Positions 10,153-56,998 of a stretch of DNA of 64,000 bases are shown one piece after another (the first letter of the stretch is position 1; every line of letters begins with the position of its first letter). Where the stretch lies: NCBI GenBank assembly GCA_026004775.1, contig BPJU01000004.1:62001-126000 (forward strand), given 5' to 3'. The stretch comes from Pirellulaceae bacterium. GTDB lineage: Bacteria; Planctomycetota; Planctomycetia; Pirellulales; Pirellulaceae. Below the pieces are notes generated by a model. The model had not been told where the DNA came from. It was given only the letters and a program-made list of their open reading frames with translations, and ran no database searches. The translations under genes were made by a program, and so were the position numbers.

Positions 10153-10363
10153 GTAACCGTTCAGGGTTAGCAAATGAAGAACACGATATTGGCTCATGGG
10201 GTAGCGGAAGTCGCAAGGCGGACGCGGTAGCGGCCGCCGCAAGACTTCCGCAACGAAAAAATCTTCGCGAAGCGTCCACATTCCGTATGCGGAACACGCC
10301 AGTGTTCCGCACCTTTGGAAGCGAGGCCCCGAAACAGCTTGTGATTCAACCGTGAACGGTTAC
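10153..10363 (-). repeat. 211-bp multi-hairpin interspersed repeat, copy A
   Basis: A 211-bp element that matches 50799-51009 in inverted orientation, with about nine mismatches by my count. It is diverged from 44919-45102. The right end is the palindrome AACCGTGAACGGTT; the left end is an imperfect version. Inside are two further perfect stems: GCGGAACAC/GTGTTCCGC with a four-base loop, and GCGGAAGTC/GACTTCCGC enclosing a GC-rich segment. No open frame is conserved. It lies 234 bases upstream of a RAYT-like gene. The architecture of several hairpins without coding capacity suits a MITE or a REP/BIME-type element. Confidence 0.85.
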
Positions 10364-47761: not shown

Positions 47762-50305
47762 TTATTGTGATAGCCGACTTAATAATTTTTGATATCGTGC
47801 ATTCCAAGGCGAACCCTGAGGCGGCGGCGAGGTCAAAAGCACATAGCGTAACAGTTTCCGTGCTTCATCGGGCTGGCCGGATGCGGCGAGTGCTTCGGCC
47901 ACGCCAAGCTTCGCTTCAAACCAGGGATCGCTGCCGGGTGCGGAACCCGCTGCCACTCGCCTCCACTGTTGCAGTGCCGGTTGCCAGCCGATCTCTGTAG
48001 CCGCCCGGCCCAAGACCCGTGCGTAGGTCAGTTGCCAATCAAGCGACATCGGATAGTCGGTTGCGGCCTTGCGAGCCAACTCGGCGGCCGCTTGCCACTG
48101 GCCTGCCGCCAGCAGCGCCTCCACCCGCAAGGCCACCCACCGTTCCGCATCTGCCGGCCCCGATCCCGGTTGGCAACGATCAAGCAGTTTCACCACCAAT
48201 GCCGCCAAAACAGTGCGATGGTCCTGCGACGCGTGATCCAGTCGAGGAACGAGTCGGGCTGCAACGTCCCAAGCGACTTGTGGCTCCAGATCGGAAATGT
48301 CCCGAAGTAGTTCCTCGGACGCAGCTACGGCATCGGGTTGGAGAGCCTGAGCCAACAGGAGTGCTGCCTGGTAATCCGCGCGGTCGCGATCAACCAGAAG
48401 CGAAGGATCTAGTTGTGTTAGTTGAGCCGCCATCTGCGGTGCCAGTTCGGGAGCGATGCCCAGCGTCAGCCAGGCTCGAGCCACCGCTGCCAGAGCCGCC
48501 ACGGCCGGTTCCGCTCGAGCGGCCATCGATTCGAAGTAGCGAGCCAGTTCATCACGCAGCACGGTCAGTTCTTCAGCAGGAGCTGTCGTAAGCCGGGTTT
48601 GCCAGATCTGGCGGGCAAGGCGCACGGCATCCCCTTGCCGATCGAGTGTTCTTATCGCCCGGCACAGCGCCAGGGCTTCATCCCAGCGGCGCTGTTGCGC
48701 ATAACGATCGGCCAGTGCCAGGCGGACGCCATCGGCACTGCCGCCGTCCGGCCAATGCTGGAGGTGTTCTTCGAGCCACTGGTCGAGTTTTTCCGGTGGC
48801 AATGCTCCGCGTTGCACGGCCTGGGCAGCAAGCCGCAGGGCTTCGCGGTGTGCCGCAGAGGCTTCGGTCCGGTCCGGCCGCTCCAGGGCCGCTGTCCGCC
48901 AGCGTTCAGCAGCGCCTGGCAGGTCGTCCAGCTTCTCGGCCAACCGGGCTGCTCGGCCTCGTGCCGTCCACCGCTCTTGCTCGACGTTCAGCCTGGCCGC
49001 CATTTCGGCTGCCCGGTCGTACGCTTCGAGGGCTTCGCCCAATTGTCCTCGCAAGAAAAGATCGTCGGCTTGCCGCCGCAGCAGTTCGGCATCCGCCGCT
49101 CCGGAACCTGCTCCGGCCGCTCTCAGGAGCAACTGCTCGGCTCTTCTTGCCCAATATGGCCCGTGTTGTTTTTCGATGTGGTGGGTCAAAGCGACGGCTT
49201 GCTCCCGCCAGGTGTTTCTCAGATTCACCGGCGGGCGGAATTCCTGGTGCCAAAGCGCAATCAACACTTCCAGCACCGCCAGATCCCATTCCGCATTGGC
49301 TGGTCCCGGGGGCGGTTGTTGGAGAGATTGCCAGGCATCGTGCCAGCGTCCTTGGGCCACAAGGAGCCGCAGCCGTTCGGCTGCGGCCAACTGCCGAATC
49401 TCTTGCGGTGCCTCGTCGGCTTGAGCCTTCGACAGCAGCGGTTCGGCTTCTGTAAAACTCCCCAAGTGCCGCAACACCATCGCCTGCTCGACATACGCCA
49501 AGAAGGTGAGTCGATCGCCGTCGGGCAACTGGGACAGGGCTTGTTGGAGCGATTGGAGGCTTTCGCCCAGCAATCCCAAACGATCCGCGCCGTCCGGATA
49601 GCAGAGTGCCTGTTCTCGCAACACTCCGCCCCGCAGCAGTCGCACCTGGCTGCGGACGGCCAGCAAGTCGTCCTGTGTCGGCTGTTGGCCGGTAGTCAGA
49701 CGAGGGGCCGATGGGATCTGTTGGTCCAGCCACCGCTCGAATTCTTCCAGTTGTCGAGCAGCCTGCCGCAGTGCGCTCAGAGCCCGCCCGCGCTCATCAT
49801 CGGTCGCCTTTCGTGAAAGTTCCAGCACTTCGCGCAGCCGCTTGCCCCATGCCATCTCGGTCAAGGCTGCCTGGCGGCGCACCCACACGGATACCGGCCG
49901 GTCACCGGCGGCCGCCACATACCGTGCCGCTTCTTGGCGAGCCTTCTGGATAGCTGTGTCCTGCTGGGCGGGATCAGGCGACGCCAACGCCTGTTCGGTG
50001 TAGGTGCGGATCAATTCGGCCGTCCACCACGCCTGCTCGATGGGACTCAGTTTGTCACGGGCCAACTGCCGCCGGCAACAGCTAGCCGCTAAGTCATAAT
50101 ATCCCCTCTGACGAAGACCATCCAGGAATCGCTGGTCGTATGCCTCCAATTGGGCAAAAGCAGCCCCCACAAAAACGCCTTGACAAAAAATCACAAGAAC
50201 CCAAGAAAACCTGATCCAATACCCCAGTAGACAAAACAATAGCCCATCCGGAGTATGGCAGCCGGCGGTTATATTTATGTTTTTGTTAAAATTACGACCG
50301 CTCAT
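47762..50305 (-). CDS. Exported tetratricopeptide-repeat protein
   Basis: A very helical protein of about 847 residues, rich in Ala, Leu, Gln and Trp, built of TPR-like units (for example AQYAQQRRWDEALALCRAIRTL-type helices and ADDLFLRGQLGEALEAYDRAAE). It has a hydrophobic N-terminal segment, LLFCLLGYWIRFSWVLVIFCQGVFVGAAFA, before QLEAYDQRFLDGL, so it is probably exported or anchored. The start is poorly defined: ATG 50305 lacks a Shine-Dalgarno sequence and lies in AT-rich DNA. It is on the same strand as the Ton-like operon but separated from it by 770 bases including hairpin repeat C. Another exported TPR protein sits in that operon, so a shared envelope role is conceivable. Confidence 0.75.
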   Translation of the reverse strand: MSGRNFNKNINITAGCHTPDGLLFCLLGYWIRFSWVLVIFCQGVFVGAAFAQLEAYDQRFLDGLRQRGYYDLAASCCRRQLARDKLSPIEQAWWTAELIRTYTEQALASPDPAQQDTAIQKARQEAARYVAAAGDRPVSVWVRRQAALTEMAWGKRLREVLELSRKATDDERGRALSALRQAARQLEEFERWLDQQIPSAPRLTTGQQPTQDDLLAVRSQVRLLRGGVLREQALCYPDGADRLGLLGESLQSLQQALSQLPDGDRLTFLAYVEQAMVLRHLGSFTEAEPLLSKAQADEAPQEIRQLAAAERLRLLVAQGRWHDAWQSLQQPPPGPANAEWDLAVLEVLIALWHQEFRPPVNLRNTWREQAVALTHHIEKQHGPYWARRAEQLLLRAAGAGSGAADAELLRRQADDLFLRGQLGEALEAYDRAAEMAARLNVEQERWTARGRAARLAEKLDDLPGAAERWRTAALERPDRTEASAAHREALRLAAQAVQRGALPPEKLDQWLEEHLQHWPDGGSADGVRLALADRYAQQRRWDEALALCRAIRTLDRQGDAVRLARQIWQTRLTTAPAEELTVLRDELARYFESMAARAEPAVAALAAVARAWLTLGIAPELAPQMAAQLTQLDPSLLVDRDRADYQAALLLAQALQPDAVAASEELLRDISDLEPQVAWDVAARLVPRLDHASQDHRTVLAALVVKLLDRCQPGSGPADAERWVALRVEALLAAGQWQAAAELARKAATDYPMSLDWQLTYARVLGRAATEIGWQPALQQWRRVAAGSAPGSDPWFEAKLGVAEALAASGQPDEARKLLRYVLLTSPPPQGSPWNARYQKLLSRLSQ

Positions 50306-51078
50306 AAATATATTATCGCCACGCACGTTAGCCACGACACAACCCACATCGCCATCGTTGACCGATCTTAAACGGTATGATGTCATGTTAAACGGTATTA
50401 TGTCGTCGTGGTGGCCCAAATCCCAACACTACATGTCGGAAGCCGCGAAGAGTGCCGCAGAGCATTCCCAGCAATAAACCTGCGAAGGTTCTTCTTGCTG
50501 CTCTCGCCCACACGGTCTTGCACTTCGAGTGCCGGTGGCGCTGAAGGCGGCAGAAGAACCTTATGCACCGGCTGTGACACAGAATTCCACGGATAGGATA
50601 AAAGTACGAATGATAACCTGCTTGCCTGAAGCAAGCGGCATTCAAGCCAGACCCTACTCTTAGAAAGGTAAAAAGTAGTTCGGCCAAACATGAAGCTGCT
50701 CAGCTCCGTATTTTGTCTCGCAATGCAGGATTATATCTTACTATCAAAACTGTTTTTACCGACGATAACAGTGCTCGAACAATGGGTTATAAAAATTTGT
50801 AACCGTTCACGGTTGAATCACAGGCTGTTTCGGGGCCTCGCTTCCACAGGTGCGGAACACTTGCGTGTTCCGCATACGGAATGTGGCCGCTTCGCGAAGA
50901 TTTTTTCGTTGCGGAAGTCTTGCGGCGGCCGCTACCGCGTCCGCCTTGCGACTTCCGCTGCCCCATGAACCAATATCGTGTTCTTCATTTTCTAACCGTG
51001 GACGGTTACTAAAAATGTCTATGGTACACCGCGATATGATTACCAATACCTGGTAGATGCTTGGCCGGACGCTATGTA
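50306..51078. other. Intergenic region carrying hairpin repeat C
   Basis: 773 bases between the TPR gene and the last ExbD gene. The part 50420-50798 contains short open frames on both strands with no conserved look. The repeat occupies 50799-51009. Confidence 0.45.
50799..51009 (+). repeat. 211-bp multi-hairpin interspersed repeat, copy C
   Basis: The same length as copy A (10153-10363) but in the opposite orientation, with about nine differences. Ends are GTAACCGTTCACGGTT and AACCGTGGACGGTTAC. Each contains a 14-base palindrome (AACCGT-TC-ACGGTT; AACCGT-GG-ACGGTT), and together they form terminal inverted repeats. Inside lie GCGGAACAC-TTGC-GTGTTCCGC and a longer GCGGAAGTC...GACTTCCGC stem. 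Confidence 0.88.
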
Positions 51079-51540
51079 TTATGGCATGGAGTGGTCTGCC
51101 TGTGGCGTTGCAAAGGCGGCGGTGAATCCATGTTGCCGGACCAGGTCATAAATGTCAATCGCGGCTCCCAGGGGAACTTCGCCATCCGGGTGGATGATTA
51201 CCGGGGGATCGCGCGACACCTGGGCAAGCTCAGCCAGGTGGCGATCCAGTTCCGCGCGGGAGGGCATCGGTTGTTCGTTTAGCTGATAGACTACACGCCC
51301 CGACTCCGAGCGGAGGCGAATCACGACGTGCTCAAAGTCCCACTCAGGCGGCGGGGCCTGGAGCGTGTTGCCACCGGGCGCCGCTGGGACGGCTACCGTG
51401 CCAGGCAGATTCTCCTCGGGACGAACAAAGCTGGTAGACCAAAGGAAGAACACCAGTAGCAGGAAGACCACGTCGATCATAGGCGTCATGGCTACGTCTA
51501 TGCCGCCGCGTTGTTGGGAATAAAGTGTTGTGCGTCGCAT
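51079..51540 (-). CDS. ExbD/TolR-family protein (second)
   Basis: A 153-residue ExbD-type protein: cytoplasmic start MRRTTLYSQQRGGIDVAMTPMIDVVFLLLVFFLWS, in which the Asp of PMIDVVF is the proton-carrying residue of the single membrane helix. A periplasmic domain follows with HVVIRLRSESG, PVIIHPDGEVPLGAAIDIYDLV. It works with ExbB as a proton-driven motor that energises an outer-membrane-reaching protein. It is the last gene of the five-gene cluster, six bases after the first ExbD gene. Two different ExbD proteins beside one ExbB is a frequent planctomycete arrangement. Confidence 0.93.
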   Translation of the reverse strand: MRRTTLYSQQRGGIDVAMTPMIDVVFLLLVFFLWSTSFVRPEENLPGTVAVPAAPGGNTLQAPPPEWDFEHVVIRLRSESGRVVYQLNEQPMPSRAELDRHLAELAQVSRDPPVIIHPDGEVPLGAAIDIYDLVRQHGFTAAFATPQADHSMP

Positions 51541-51546
51541 GGCCGG

Positions 51547-51954
51547 TTACTGCCGGTAAACGGAGAATGTCACTTCCTGAATACCTGCCTGCCAGCAAGC
51601 CCGCAGCACCGGTTGCACGTACCGGTACGGGACGTCGCGGTCGGCACGAATACGCACCTGCGGTTGCCGGTGATCTTGCCGTAGTTGGGCCAGCAGCTCC
51701 TCCAGATTCTTGGGTGTTACCGGCCGGCTGTGATAGAGCAAGGTCCCATCAGGCAATATGTTGATGGTAGCTGCGGCCGGCACAGCGACTTCCTTGCCGG
51801 TTTGGGCCAGTGGCAGTCGTAACGGGAAAAACACCTCTTGCTTGGCCAGATGGCTCGACACCAAAAAGAAGATAATCAACTGAAACACGACGTCGATCAT
51901 GGGCGTCATGTTTACGGCGACGCTATGGTGGCGAGCCGGACGCGGCACTTTCAT
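51547..51954 (-). CDS. ExbD/TolR-family protein (first)
   Basis: A 135-residue ExbD-type protein starting MKVPRPARHHSVAVNMTPMIDVVFQLIIFFLVSS, with the essential membrane Asp in PMIDVVF. The periplasmic domain includes ATINILPDGTLLYHSRPVTP and VRIRADRDVPYRYVQPVLRAC. It overlaps the end of the ExbB gene by four bases (ATGA on the minus strand), so the two are translationally coupled. It is only distantly similar to the second ExbD beside it, suggesting the two form a heteromeric stator part (inference). Confidence 0.93.
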   Translation of the reverse strand: MKVPRPARHHSVAVNMTPMIDVVFQLIIFFLVSSHLAKQEVFFPLRLPLAQTGKEVAVPAAATINILPDGTLLYHSRPVTPKNLEELLAQLRQDHRQPQVRIRADRDVPYRYVQPVLRACWQAGIQEVTFSVYRQ

Positions 51955-52754
51955 GGTGCGGTTCCCCGCGGGGGTAACGGTGGCTTGGAAGCCGGTGCCG
52001 GTCGTGCTTTCAGCGGTCCCAAGGCGTGCATGGCCAGATAGGCTGCCTCGGCCGCCAACTCATCCACTCGATTGCGGAAAATCGCAAACGCACCCAACGA
52101 CGGAATGGCTATGATCAGGCCGACCACGGTGGTCACCAGAGCCTGGTAGATTCCCTCGGCCAACTCCGGTGCTCCCGCCGCGCCGCCGGAAGAGGCGACC
52201 CGATGAAAGGCCAGGATCATACCCGTAACCGTTCCCAGTAATCCTACCATGGGTGCCAGATTGCCGATCACGGAGAGATATTCGACTTTGCGAAACAAGC
52301 GGGCAGCCTGTTCGGCCAGCGCGTCTTCCAGACTTTTTTCGATGGCTGACCAGCCGCCGTTGATTTCCGACAGACCTTGCAGCAGCAGGAACGACAAGAG
52401 ACTGGGTTGTTGGCGGCACAACTGATCGGCCTCGGCCACTCGTCCAGCAGCCACCAGCGACCGCACCGAATCAGCCAGCTCTTGCGGCAGCAGGTCCTTG
52501 CGGCGGAGGGTCAAGAGTTGCTCGAAAATCAGGTAAGCAGCCGTCAACGACAAGCCGATCAACACCAGCATGATCAATATGCCCACCGGTCCGCCTGAAA
52601 AGAGGATTTCGAAAAAACCTTCGGGTGGACGGGCGGACTCGGTGGCGGTGGTCGCCGAATCGGTGTTTTGAGCGGCAAGCCGTTGGTGGGCCAGCCACAG
52701 TAGGGTACCCAGGAAAACGGTCAAGCCAGAGAAACCGGGTGAGCGAATGAACAT
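51951..52754 (-). CDS. ExbB/TolQ/MotA-type proton channel protein
   Basis: A protein of about 267 residues with a signal-like first helix (FSGLTVFLGTLLWLAHQRLAAQ), then GGPVGILIMLVLIGLSLTAAYLIFEQ, a cytoplasmic helical part, and the two conserved C-terminal membrane helices with VEYLSVIGNLAPMVGLLGTVTGMI and GIYQALVTTVVGLIIAIPSLGAFAIF. With the ExbD proteins it forms the inner-membrane motor. Start ATG 52754 is preferred over a TTG at 52787. It is 57 bases downstream of the TPR gene in the same direction. Confidence 0.94.
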   Translation of the reverse strand: MFIRSPGFSGLTVFLGTLLWLAHQRLAAQNTDSATTATESARPPEGFFEILFSGGPVGILIMLVLIGLSLTAAYLIFEQLLTLRRKDLLPQELADSVRSLVAAGRVAEADQLCRQQPSLLSFLLLQGLSEINGGWSAIEKSLEDALAEQAARLFRKVEYLSVIGNLAPMVGLLGTVTGMILAFHRVASSGGAAGAPELAEGIYQALVTTVVGLIIAIPSLGAFAIFRNRVDELAAEAAYLAMHALGPLKARPAPASKPPLPPRGTAP

Positions 52755-52811
52755 AGTGGATTCCGTTCGTGGGTTCCTGTTTGCCAAGTCGCCTTCGCAC
52801 GCAAAGGCGGC

Positions 52812-53918
52812 CTAGCGCGATTCGGCGGTGCTGAGTGCTTCGGCACGGCGGCGCGCTTCGGCAGCCAGAGGCGTGGAGGCGAATCGCTCGGCCAGCTCAG
52901 CATACAGCGCGGCGGCTCGCGCCGCATCCGACTGTTGCGTCAAGACCGCCGCTCTCCACAATGCTTCGCTGGCCAACCGAGGGCGATCCGGGTACAGGAT
53001 AGCCACTCGAAGCCACGCCAGCATCGCCCCGTCGCGGTCGTTTTGCTGCTGACACCATTGACCCAATACGAAATAGGGTCCGGCCCGAACCGCCTCCGGT
53101 AACTGCCTGATGATAACCTCGGCTTGTTGCCTATCACCCGGTGCCGGTCCGCCCGCGGCGGCCAGGCGCCACAATTGGCAGCGCGCCAAAGCAGCCACCA
53201 GGGGATGCTCGCTTTTTGCCACTAAGGCGGCCAAAACTTGCTGTGCCCGATGCCGCTCGGGACTCCCGATCAGCCAGGCTGCTCCCACCAGTTGCAGGGC
53301 AGGTTGCGGTCGGGTGATCCAATCCAGCGCTTTGGTTTGGAGCGACGTCACGCCGGGCGTTTCGCCCCAGGGAAGCGGCCAGTCTGCGTAGAAGGGAGGG
53401 TAGGGATCCTCCTGCACCAGCGCCGCGAACAGTTCGGCGGCTGCATCGAATTGACCCGATTCGTAGTAGGCTCGAACCAATCGAGCTGCCAGCAACCGTC
53501 GGGCCCAAGGGCGGGTTTCTCGATCGAGCGTCTGCCGCCACACGGGTGCGGCGGCTGCCCAGTCGCCTGCCGCCGCACGCTCGTCGGCTACCTGGTACGT
53601 ATCCGGCCATGTGGTTTGGATCGCGACGACTTGATCCGCACGAAATCGCTGGAGTTGGCCAGAAGGCCGTTCCAGTACCAGTTCCCGTCCGTTGTAGTCC
53701 ACAATGCGGCCCGACCAACTGACCTGCTGCGGGCCGGTGCCCGATTGCACCACGACGCGGTCTTCCTGGCAATGAGCCAATGGACCGGTGGCCCCCAAAC
53801 ATGCCATCAGGCTGGCCATAAGGATACACCAGGCCAACGATCTCCTGGCTGCCCGCCGCGATGTAGAACGGCGGGCCGCGGTAAAGCTCACGGCTGCTGA
53901 CCCCGCGATAGCTCCCAT
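52812..53918 (-). CDS. Exported TPR-like protein of the Ton-like cluster
   Basis: A 368-residue protein with an N-terminal signal peptide (RRSLAWCILMASLMACLGATGPLAHC; the Cys could also be a lipobox variant). A short beta-rich segment follows (VSWSGRIVDYNGRELVLERPSGQLQRFRADQVVAI), resembling a small SH3-like or PRC-type barrel, then TPR helices (ADERAAAGDWAAAAPVWRQTL, LVRAYYESGQFDAAAELFAAL, ALYAELAERFASTPLAAEARRR). It lies between the vWA gene (18 bases upstream) and exbB, so it probably acts in the periplasm with the motor. This resembles the YbgF/CpoB role beside Tol genes, by analogy only. Confidence 0.82.
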   Translation of the reverse strand: MGAIAGSAAVSFTAARRSTSRRAARRSLAWCILMASLMACLGATGPLAHCQEDRVVVQSGTGPQQVSWSGRIVDYNGRELVLERPSGQLQRFRADQVVAIQTTWPDTYQVADERAAAGDWAAAAPVWRQTLDRETRPWARRLLAARLVRAYYESGQFDAAAELFAALVQEDPYPPFYADWPLPWGETPGVTSLQTKALDWITRPQPALQLVGAAWLIGSPERHRAQQVLAALVAKSEHPLVAALARCQLWRLAAAGGPAPGDRQQAEVIIRQLPEAVRAGPYFVLGQWCQQQNDRDGAMLAWLRVAILYPDRPRLASEALWRAAVLTQQSDAARAAALYAELAERFASTPLAAEARRRAEALSTAESR

Positions 53919-53936
53919 CGACAGACTCCCAAACGG

Positions 53937-55022
53937 TCACCGCACAAGGCGGGTCACGTCAATGTACACATAACGCCCGCCGGTGGCCGAGGCCAATTGT
54001 CTGAGGAACGGGATCGAGCCGGGGCCGGGCCCTGCACCGAACTCGATCGCATGGATCGTGGCTCCGCACCGGCTTGCCTGCCGCAGCAGACTCTCCAATT
54101 GGGCAGATGTCGGGGGATTTTCTTGACCGTCGGTCAGGAAAAAGACGACATCCGGCTGCATCTGGAGAGCCAGACGCAGCGCTTCGTAGTGATGTGAGCC
54201 TCCGGTGGCGGTGATACCAGCAACAAAACTCTCAGCCAGGCGTTTGCCGGCTTCATCGGCAAACAACAGCCGCGGCGGCTGGGGAGTATACGGATTGAAT
54301 ACCGAAGGCCGCTCGTTGTAGAAAACGATCTGGAATTGATGCGTTTTATCCAGTTGAGCCAGGCTGGCCAGCAGTTCGGCCTTGGCGGCGGCCAGGGGAC
54401 GTCCACCAAAACCGTCCATGCTGCCGGAGCGATCGAAAACGTATACAAAGCGCGTCCCTACCCCCTCGGCGCCGAACACGCTGGTGCGTCCCTTGCCCCC
54501 TAGACCGCGTTGGGGGCGGCCCGTTGCGCGATAGTCGCCACCACTGGAAAACGCCTGGACGCTCGACGGACTGCCGGTTAGCGGGGCTGGGGCCGAAGGC
54601 AACTCGACCGGCGCGCCGGCTCCCTCGTTTTCCCATATCCGTGCTAAGGAGGCCTGTGCACCGGACGCTTGCGTATCAGCAGGTGCTTGTGGGGCGTGAT
54701 TCGGGTTCGTGAGATAGCGTTCCTCCGATCCGCGCACTTCCACCAACGCCACACCCGCCTTGCGGTCGGGCTCCGCCGATACAATGCTCTTTGCCGGCAG
54801 ATGCCGCCAGATCAAGGCCAACAACACAAAAAGCGTGGCGTGCAAGGCTGCTGAAGCCATCCAGGCAGGAATTCGAACGCGATCCGGATAGAGGCATTCG
54901 CAGACGAACCCGTCGCCTAATGAATGCCTTGTCGGATCGATCATTTCCGGCCCCGGGCGCCGCCCGACCGGAACGCGTTGCCGGCTGACAGCAGTTTGGT
55001 TTTCGGTACGTTCAGGGTTCAT
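53937..55022 (-). CDS. vWA-domain protein with TonB-like membrane anchor
   Basis: A 361-residue protein. One membrane helix at about residues 54-72 reads WMASAALHATLFVLLALIW and contains S57-x3-H61, the Ser/His spacing of the TonB and TolA anchors that contact ExbB/ExbD. A linker (about 75-185) rich in Ala, Pro, Ser and Gly follows. Then comes a von Willebrand A domain with a complete MIDAS start, FVYVFDRSGSMDGFGG (DRSGS at 197-201), TATGGSHHYEAL and FFLTDGQENPPTSAQL. There is no TonB C-terminal domain. It is the first gene of the ExbB/ExbD operon, suggesting the motor drives a periplasmic vWA domain instead of classic TonB (inference). The start ATG is at 55020-55022. Confidence 0.85.
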   Translation of the reverse strand: MNPERTENQTAVSRQRVPVGRRPGPEMIDPTRHSLGDGFVCECLYPDRVRIPAWMASAALHATLFVLLALIWRHLPAKSIVSAEPDRKAGVALVEVRGSEERYLTNPNHAPQAPADTQASGAQASLARIWENEGAGAPVELPSAPAPLTGSPSSVQAFSSGGDYRATGRPQRGLGGKGRTSVFGAEGVGTRFVYVFDRSGSMDGFGGRPLAAAKAELLASLAQLDKTHQFQIVFYNERPSVFNPYTPQPPRLLFADEAGKRLAESFVAGITATGGSHHYEALRLALQMQPDVVFFLTDGQENPPTSAQLESLLRQASRCGATIHAIEFGAGPGPGSIPFLRQLASATGGRYVYIDVTRLVR

Positions 55023-55215: not shown

Positions 55216-55836
55216 GTGAACGACGATCGAGTGGGTTTGCTGAGCGATGCGACGCTTCGCATTGTATACTACCCTCATCCAACGCTGCGGTACATGGCGA
55301 AACCGGTGCGGCGGATCGACGATGGCCTGCGGCGTTTGGTTAAGCGGATGTTTGAGTTGATGTACGAAGCCAAAGGCGTGGGGCTGGCCGCCAATCAGGT
55401 CGATGTGCCCCTGCGCCTGTTTGTGGTCAACCTGGCAGCCAAGCCGGACGAAGGTGAAGAGCGCGTTTTCATTAACCCTGTGATCTCGTCACCTCAGGGG
55501 TGGGAAGAAGACGAAGAGGGTTGTTTGAGTTTGCCGGGAATCTATGCGCCGGTGAAGCGTCCGAAGCGCGTGCGAGTGCAAGCGTTTGATCTGGGCGGCA
55601 ACGAAATCATCGAGGATGTTTCGGGGCTGCTGGCTCGCGTTGTACAGCATGAACTGGACCATCTGGATGGGGTGTTGTTCATCGATCGTGTGGACGATGA
55701 GGAGCACCGCGAAGAGATAGCCCGGAATCTGGCGGAGCTGGAACGGCGGTTTTCCGAGGAGCGGCAGGCGGGGGCGGTTCCCGATGACATCCAGATTGCC
55801 CAACGCCGGGAATTGTGGCTGAAGCAATACGCTTAG
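55216..55836 (+). CDS. def: Peptide deformylase
   Basis: A 206-residue deformylase that removes formyl from new N-terminal methionines. All three family motifs are intact: GVGLAANQ, EEGCLSLPG (metal Cys) and QHELDHLDG (two metal His and the catalytic Glu). The fold starts RIVYYPHPTLRYMAKPVRRID. A 40-residue charged C-terminal tail follows the last helix. GTG 55216 opens the frame; the nearest AAGGA is unusually far upstream, so a later start at or before RIVYYP remains possible. It is divergent from the vWA gene and followed by fmt, the natural partner. Confidence 0.96.
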   Translation: MNDDRVGLLSDATLRIVYYPHPTLRYMAKPVRRIDDGLRRLVKRMFELMYEAKGVGLAANQVDVPLRLFVVNLAAKPDEGEERVFINPVISSPQGWEEDEEGCLSLPGIYAPVKRPKRVRVQAFDLGGNEIIEDVSGLLARVVQHELDHLDGVLFIDRVDDEEHREEIARNLAELERRFSEERQAGAVPDDIQIAQRRELWLKQYA

Positions 55837-56002
55837 TTCCTGTTTCGAGTACCGGTGATGGCATGTCTGGGCGATAGGTCCCGCAAGCTTTTTGTTTTAA
55901 TAATCGTTGTACCGGTAGAACTGAGGGTGCCCGTGACGGGTGAGAGTGTGACGTGCCGGGCGCAGAGTGGTTGCAAAGTGGTACGGGAGCAAGGAGTGAA
56001 CA

Positions 56003-56998
56003 TTGCGGCTGGTGGTGGTGGCTAACGGAGCGTTTGCCGTGCCGACGTTGGAGGCTTTGTGTGAGAGCCGGCATCAGGTGGTGGGCGTTGTTACGCGCCC
56101 GGCTCCACCCAGCGTCGGGCGCCGTCCCGTGTGCCGTCCTGTGTGGCAGGCGGCCACCGCCAGAGGGCTGGTGGTTTTCGAACCGGCCACCATCAACGAT
56201 CCGGCGTCGGTGGAGTGGTTACGCAACCGACAAGCCGATCTTCTGGTAGTATGCGACTACGGCGAAATCTTGCGGAAAACTGTTTTAGAAGAATCCGCGC
56301 CGTTGGGTGCGGTAAACTTGCATGGATCATTGCTCCCCAAATACCGCGGCGCGGCGCCCGTGGCGTGGGCTATCTTCAATGGGGAAGTCCAGACCGGTGT
56401 GAGTGTCATTCGGATAACGCCTCGGTTGGATGCCGGTCCGATCTTGGTCCAGCGCGCCACCAACATCGGGCCGGACGAAACGACGCCGGAACTGGAAGCT
56501 CGATTGGCAAAGTTGGGTGCCGAGGCTGTGCTTGAAGCGCTGTCACTTCTGGAGAACTGGGACGGCCACTCGCCTTTGGGTACGCCACAGGACCCTCGAC
56601 AAGTAACCCTGGCCCCGCGGCTTACGCGCTCGATGGGATGCATCGACTGGTCGTGGCCGGCCGAAACGATCCGCAACCATGTGCGGGCGATGGTCCCATG
56701 GCCGGGGAGTTTTACCTGGTGGGTATCTGGCCAGCGAGCTTCCAAGCCGATGCGGTTGATACTGCATCGGGTGCAAGCTGTGGCCGGCTCATCCGGAGAA
56801 AAACCCGGTACCGTCGTGCATGCCGGACAAGGGGGGCTTCGGGTTCAGGCGGGCGAGGGCACGGCTGTCGATATCCAGCAGCTTCAGCCCGAGGGCAGGC
56901 GTCCCATGCCGGCCGAGGCTTTCCTGCGAGGCTATCCGATCCGAGCGGGCGATCTTTTGACGAACGAACCGGCCGAGCAATCACCGCGGGAAAGTTAA
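56003..56998 (+). CDS. fmt: Methionyl-tRNA formyltransferase
   Basis: A 331-residue enzyme that formylates initiator Met-tRNA with 10-formyl-tetrahydrofolate. Evidence: MRLVVVANGAFAVPTLEAL (Rossmann start), LLVVCDYGEILRKTVLE, the formyl-transfer signature NLHGSLLPKYRGAAPVAWAI with the His and Arg used in catalysis, GVSVIRITPRLDAGPIL, and the C-terminal OB-like domain (WPAETIRNHVRAMVPWPGSF onward). The start is a TTG at 56003 with AAGGAG six bases upstream. It follows def by 166 bases; the pair forms the usual def-fmt unit. Confidence 0.95.
   Translation: MRLVVVANGAFAVPTLEALCESRHQVVGVVTRPAPPSVGRRPVCRPVWQAATARGLVVFEPATINDPASVEWLRNRQADLLVVCDYGEILRKTVLEESAPLGAVNLHGSLLPKYRGAAPVAWAIFNGEVQTGVSVIRITPRLDAGPILVQRATNIGPDETTPELEARLAKLGAEAVLEALSLLENWDGHSPLGTPQDPRQVTLAPRLTRSMGCIDWSWPAETIRNHVRAMVPWPGSFTWWVSGQRASKPMRLILHRVQAVAGSSGEKPGTVVHAGQGGLRVQAGEGTAVDIQQLQPEGRRPMPAEAFLRGYPIRAGDLLTNEPAEQSPRES

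Follow-up and report, generated by a model that had tools for sequence, protein, structure and literature searches.

TonB and TolA have long been the textbook transducers of ExbB/TolQ-type motors, and in Myxococcus gliding the AglRQS proton motor works with CglB, a surface adhesin of the von Willebrand factor A (vWA) type. A motor of the ExbB/TolQ kind encoded together with a vWA protein is found in a 64,000-nucleotide stretch of DNA from a Pirellulaceae bacterium (assembly GCA_026004775.1, contig BPJU01000004.1, positions 62,001 to 126,000 of the forward strand; the whole stretch is termed the window here), which lies on contig 4 of a 6.14 Mb genome that is 99.9% complete. Comparative analysis of this operon (window positions 51079 to 55022, minus strand) makes it quite probable that it encodes a proton-driven trans-envelope force transducer comparable to TonB-ExbBD and TolA-TolQR, and carrying a vWA head.

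In the Escherichia coli systems, as given in the sections of PMC12215075 drawn on here, TonB Ser16/His20 contact ExbB Ser34/Trp38 and TolA Ser18/His22 contact TolQ Ser28/Trp32, while the TonB D-box (45-ISVTMVT-51), which starts 29 residues past Ser16, joins the ExbD dimer; the hydrophobic-hydrophilic pattern of the D-box is taken from the corresponding section of PMC10907165. Transducers with a vWA domain have already been proposed for bacteria of the Planctomycetes-Verrucomicrobia-Chlamydiae (PVC) group (Williams-Jones et al., 2025, Mol Biol Evol, PMC12204202). The parts of that paper at hand describe vWA proteins with an SHLS anchor, a disordered linker with a motor box and a C-terminal vWA domain, in synteny with TPR (tetratricopeptide repeat), tolQ-like and two different tolR-like genes, and an AlphaFold3 complex of relatives in which the anchor His is docked at the motor. 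They also describe a second kind of vWA protein (TPH-vWA), the helix of which sits inside the TolQ pentamer, replacing TolR and providing a proton-binding Asp, and which occurs without both tolR genes and without the SHLS residues.

On the evidence of those parts the window operon is a new member of the first of these families, having the helix Ser and His, the linker and motor box, the vWA fold and the synteny of TPR, tolQ-like and two tolR-like genes. The same parts name one TPR gene, without the sixth gene of about 840 codons described below, and the words 'MIDAS' and 'orphan' are absent from the text of the paper. Relative to what they contain, the present analysis adds the sixth gene, the invariance of the anchor with controls, paralogues without a motor and a genome survey of TonB and TolB. 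The five genes considered first are the following.

53937 to 55022, minus strand: candidate vWA transducer P0001, 361 aa (open reading frame (ORF); Pfam VWA_2; AlphaFold2 (AF2) model; vWA fold matches)
52812 to 53918, minus strand: small TPR protein P0002 (AF2 mean pLDDT, the predicted local confidence score, 91)
51951 to 52787, minus strand: ExbB/TolQ-like motor subunit P0003 (Pfam MotA_ExbB; ExbB/TolQ matches in the PDB)
51547 to 51954, minus strand: ExbD/TolR-like subunit 1, P0004 (Pfam ExbD)
51079 to 51540, minus strand: ExbD/TolR-like subunit 2, P0005 (Pfam ExbD)

The ORF list places these genes consecutively on the minus strand in the order vWA, TPR, ExbB, ExbD, ExbD with intergenic gaps of 18, 24, -4 and 6 bp, which bears out the positions, order and short gaps reported in an earlier note made from the sequence of the window. 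The note's description of a five-gene operon is right as regards these five but overlooked a sixth, TPR-type gene, so that there are two TPR-type proteins rather than one. Pfam E-values were 5e-27 for MotA_ExbB, 1e-27 and 6e-20 for the two ExbD matches and 4e-6 for VWA_2, the last barely past the cut-off. The ExbB ORF has a TTG start, with an ATG 11 codons further in. Ranked against NCBIfam models, the ExbB was nearest to TolQ, the ExbDs to TolR and the small TPR protein to YbgF/CpoB, all below cut-off, a ranking that leans toward a Tol-like job. TPR Pfam models matched P0002 only below cut-off, the solenoid being visible in the predicted fold, in which a signal or membrane helix (20-42) is followed by a beta domain (53-101) and the TPR solenoid (106-367); a fold search with this model returned generic TPR matches only.

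Within the vWA protein, the following elements were identified.

54804 to 54866, minus strand: single transmembrane anchor helix, residues 53-73 (AF2; block pLDDT 91, 95, 71)
54840 to 54854, minus strand: Ser57-x3-His61, putative motor-docking motif of the SHLS type (invariant in aligned anchors)
54738 to 54758, minus strand: D-box/motor-box-like strand, residues 89-95 (AGVALVE; conserved G90-I/V91-x-L93)
54492 to 54710, minus strand: disordered linker, predicted to be periplasmic, residues ~105-177 (low pLDDT across most of it)
53952 to 54491, minus strand: vWA domain, residues ~178-357 (pLDDT mostly >90; Foldseek vWA matches)
54420 to 54434, minus strand: metal ion-dependent adhesion site (MIDAS) motif DRSGS, D197-x-S199-x-S201, residues 197-201 (invariant in the alignment of 27 relatives and also, subject to the retrieval bias described below, in the larger alignment)

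The evidence for coupling to the motor is carried by the anchor. Ser57 and His61 lie inside the only predicted transmembrane helix of the vWA protein, the AF2 helix at 53-73, with the S-x3-H spacing that the earlier note had read in this lone helix. Conservation of both residues in homologues, on which that note had staked its proposal in advance, was found throughout: both were invariant in an initial alignment, which held 27 proteins, and in 77 of 77 relatives with an aligned anchor (taken from the best 80 of 383 relatives from named genomes, the three without an aligned anchor being left out), where they are the sole zero-entropy columns of a helix in which all other columns vary. Such invariance across divergent sequences suggests continued selection. 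The relatives were retrieved with the patterns YVFDRSxSM and DV[IV]FFLTD, which biases the counts for the MIDAS D/S/S and Asp298, whereas Ser57, His61 and Thr276 lie outside both patterns. Beyond the family, S-x3-H was kept in all 20 loci examined, and 15 of these had an ExbB within the stretch; the 20 were selected from the better-scoring of the 50 genomes that gave a match when 294 genomes of the phylum were searched. The equivalent 25-residue core of unrelated proteins from the same loci contained S-x3-H in only 4 of 327 cases (proteins with a hydrophobic stretch among the first 150 residues), and a chance origin of the motif was rejected at this control rate. The Leu of SHLS corresponds to Leu68 in the window protein and is Leu in 56 of the 77 relatives.

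Regarding the region beyond the helix, a loosened D-box pattern 30-32 residues past Ser57 was detected in 43 of the 77 relatives as compared with 12 of 231 control linker segments; the pattern is the published one with any residue allowed at the polar inner places, and was composed after the alignment had been viewed. The AF2 model has a strand pair at 93-104 with moderate confidence (pLDDT 74 and 64), strand 93-97 falling in the block with pLDDT 74. The model of the head matches solved vWA domains in Foldseek, and there is no TonB_C Pfam match on the protein, so the absence of a TonB C-terminal domain reported earlier holds and a vWA fold stands in its place. Together, the Ser/His counts inside and outside the family and the D-box-like strand support the proposal that the energised partner of the motor is the vWA protein.

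A MIDAS is defined by DxSxS together with Thr and Asp as metal ligands. The MIDAS that was earlier called complete has DRSGS at residues 197-201, but its Thr position is occupied by Ser276 (54195-54197), where all 80 aligned relatives have Thr; D197, S199, S201 and D298 are present in the window protein and are the putative metal ligands.

Several residues expected of a proton motor of this kind are also conserved, among them the residue that would face the anchor.

52548 to 52550, minus strand: ExbB Ser80, counterpart of ExbB Ser34/TolQ Ser28 (TolQ alignment; present in all 53 homologues)

Ser80, Pro229, Thr186 and Thr220 of the window ExbB are kept in all 53 aligned homologues and correspond by alignment to Ser34, Pro190, Thr148 and Thr181, Pro229 being on helix 3. 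Asp21 of ExbD1 and Asp23 of ExbD2 are conserved throughout the aligned homologues. The two ExbDs form two separate clades (100/100) in a fixed gene order, the labels ExbD1 and ExbD2 having been assigned from profile scores and being consistent with gene order; for these reasons the motor probably holds an unequal ExbD pair.

Compared with TonB-ExbB-ExbD of E. coli, the locus thus has the same motor family, an S-x3-H anchor, the equivalent of ExbB Ser34 and a D-box-like strand at nearly the same distance (30-32 residues here, 29 in TonB), but it differs in having a vWA head instead of TonB_C and two different ExbDs, and in belonging to a genome without a TonB-dependent receptor barrel match. 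It resembles TolA-TolQ-TolR and Tol-Pal with CpoB in that TolQ, TolR and YbgF/CpoB are the best models, if below cut-off, and differs from Tol-Pal in its vWA head and in the absence of TolB_N from the family genomes surveyed. AglRQS/CglB shares with it a proton motor and a vWA protein, CglB being, however, a surface adhesin and not a transducer anchored in the inner membrane.

Regarding the distribution of the system, a vWA relative (E <= 0.001) was detected in all 60 genomes of the family searched. Where at least 3 kb follow the vWA gene, ExbB and both ExbDs lie downstream in constant order in 47 of 67 loci, with the small TPR gene in 42. Among 12 genomes in which the vWA gene is unlinked, 11 have at another place an ExbB 55-64% identical to that of the window (15 chosen genomes were searched, the other three being linked controls; the match in G022 spans a stop codon), and the motor probably also acts in trans where the genes are unlinked. 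S-x3-H was present in 39 of 44 paralogue rows from 40 loci, which were hand-picked from the lower-scoring matches, many because the match reached the anchor, a choice that favours the motif, and in which helices were picked by hydropathy; an ExbB was seen only at L200 and L211. Twelve paralogues with the motif have 23-35% identity to the window protein and keep the MIDAS D/S/S and Asp298, their invariant Ser/His following from their selection for S-x3-H. No partner common to many loci was found for the vWA type without a motor, a MoxR/BatA-like cluster (by eye) occurring in 4-5 of 25.

The loci L200 and L211 contain a second kind of vWA-TPR-ExbB-ExbD-ExbD arrangement, in which the divergent vWA protein has N-terminal CxxC pairs that look zinc-ribbon-like by eye. 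The window's own genome encodes a second vWA-type protein with a Ser-x3-His anchor (L002, G000:C21, 1498-2616), which has no Pfam match at 0.01 and adjoins a sulfatase-like gene (by eye); no motor was seen in the stretches read. A scan of viral contigs for the vWA protein gave no match.

The vWA system is a candidate for energising the outer envelope in bacteria without Tol-Pal, because the best vWA match is of the operon type in 51 of the 60 family genomes (by eye) while TonB_C was detected in 34 and TolB_N in none. The TonB-dependent receptor barrel was detected in 42 of these genomes. The window's genome has no match to TonB_C, the receptor barrel or TolB_N; it has nine MotA_ExbB and ten ExbD matches. 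Inspection by eye of 18 TonB_C loci from this family picked out a candidate TonB-like protein bearing S-x3-H at 13 and none at five. Two further loci of the window's genome, L224 and L225, have an ExbB, two ExbDs and large TPR-type proteins, no vWA gene being seen within the stretch. A vWA head on such an anchor would mean that the anchor is modular and able to drive other cargo.

A different arrangement was observed at 7150-13136 of L227 (G000:C5:276000-293000), where an ExbB and an ExbD accompany a protein of 1533 aa for which hydropathy predicts three helices, with S-x3-H on the third, and which also has a low-complexity linker of about 1000 aa. Its C-terminal domain has weak squalene-hopene-cyclase-like similarity, is matched in each of the 60 family genomes (>380 bits in 54) and is possibly another transducer head. 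Among 21 loci of this type that were read, ExbB and/or ExbD were present in 19, S-x3-H in 10 and the His in 19 (by eye).

As to how the complex might work, five ExbB subunits would surround one ExbD1/ExbD2 pair, with Ser57/His61 lying against ExbB helix 1 near Ser80, a docking of the helix on ExbB that close analogy supports, and the D-box strand would join the periplasmic ExbD dimer, as close analogy also suggests. Proton flow could then turn the ExbD pair so that the linker is pulled or wound, and the force might pass to whatever the vWA head binds, possibly via the MIDAS metal. Both TPR-type proteins are likely to be periplasmic partners, an adaptor role such as the earlier note gave to its one TPR protein being conceivable. 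Rather than in nutrient uptake, the complex would most likely serve in the upkeep or movement of something located at the outer membrane or cell wall, given a motor nearest to TolQ/TolR, a family sample without TolB_N matches and a genome that has no TonB_C match.

Several observations weigh against a motor-driven vWA transducer. Within the proteins, the last Ser of SHLS is Trp72 in the window, at a position not conserved among relatives, even the loosened D-box pattern is missing from 34 of the 77 relatives, and the ExbB Trp that bridges the Ser-His pair to the pore (Trp38 in E. coli) is Ala84 here, followed by Tyr; three TonB-linked ExbBs examined from the same family likewise have no such Trp. 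Among the loci, no motor lies beside the vWA gene in 20 of the 67 with room (10 with TPR next), as scored within 3-6 kb using profiles of window-type subunits. The best match seems or may be of the motor-less type only in nine of the 60 family genomes (L084-L092, by eye), G052 has no close ExbB despite an unlinked vWA gene, and five of the 44 paralogue rows are without S-x3-H, some of these being helix mis-picks. Finally, no functional study of, or experiment on, such vWA transducers was recognised in a search of the open-licence literature.

A vWA protein that docks like TonB might nevertheless have a regulatory, plugging or sensing role, in which, for instance, a ligand-bound head opens the channel, while the work is done by others such as TPR proteins on the ExbD pair. 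We consider this unlikely: TPR-type genes do adjoin ExbB-ExbD-ExbD without a vWA gene at L224 and L225, and a large TPR gene follows the motor at most operon loci with room for it and, weakly, at the three loci without a small-TPR match described below, but the linker and D-box architecture matches that of force transducers and the paralogues mostly retain the anchor although their linkers and heads vary. A reading of Ser/His as a leftover of TonB/TolA descent, or as a matter of helix packing unrelated to the motor, would fit the loci without a motor just mentioned and the lack of an ExbB at 38 of 40 paralogue loci; set against the total invariance of Ser and His and the close ExbB elsewhere in nearly all of the unlinked genomes, it is quite improbable. 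A conventional TonB or TolA system whose C-terminal domain is weakly conserved would share the motor family, the anchor motif and the D-box-like strand, but it is very improbable given the confident vWA fold, the lack of a TonB_C match, a genome without TonB_C or receptor barrel matches and a family sample without TolB_N; a TonB or TolA with a decayed C-terminus was rejected on the vWA fold. It is scarcely credible that the protein belongs to the second kind in PMC12204202, as far as the sections at hand describe it, with a helix that takes TolR's position within the TolQ pentamer and provides a proton-binding Asp: the vWA gene does lie beside a TolQ-like gene, but two ExbD genes are present and helix 53-73 has Ser and His and no Asp, on which grounds this candidate too was rejected.

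If the operon does encode a force transducer with a vWA head, a broader but doubtful extension is that planctomycetes run a general vWA system replacing Tol-Pal, in which a single TolQR-like motor, or a small number of them, built around an obligatory ExbD1/ExbD2 pair, would drive, in trans, several interchangeable Ser-His vWA proteins differing in linker and head, as several TonBs can share one ExbBD. The operon-type head and the two TPR-type proteins would form the core, doing TolA's envelope-tethering or division job, and the inequality of the ExbD pair would determine which way the D-box binds.

Regarding the gene that was overlooked, the sixth protein is encoded as follows.

47762 to 50419, minus strand: TPR-type protein P0006, ~840 aa (homologues downstream of ExbD2 in relatives)

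Of 66 operon loci offering 1.5 kb or more of room, 42 have a homologue of this gene downstream of ExbD2 and on its strand, at a distance of at most 37 bp in 40 cases, the 66 loci coming from pooled sets that share genomes and are not independent (G sets and L094-L173; L034-L092 overlap L094-L173). In the window the distance from ExbD2 is about 0.7 kb. The P0006 ORF opens with TTG and has in-frame ATGs at 50386 and 50305; a signal-like N-terminus was seen by eye in the window protein and its relatives alike, and the protein is probably exported. Three phylum-level loci (L287-L289) that have no small-TPR match also showed weak-scoring matches to the sixth gene next to their vWA-ExbB-ExbD-ExbD genes. 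An exact 30-bp repeat occurs in opposite orientation at 50901-50930 (plus strand) and 10232-10261 (minus strand) of the window, the first copy lying between ExbD2 and the sixth gene.

On the other side of the operon, genes at 55216-56998 on the plus strand are divergent from it and resemble, by eye, those for peptide deformylase and formyltransferase; their homologues, labelled def and fmt by eye, occur at 32 and 27, respectively, of 140 loci, pooled with the same sharing of genomes, and have a housekeeping look.

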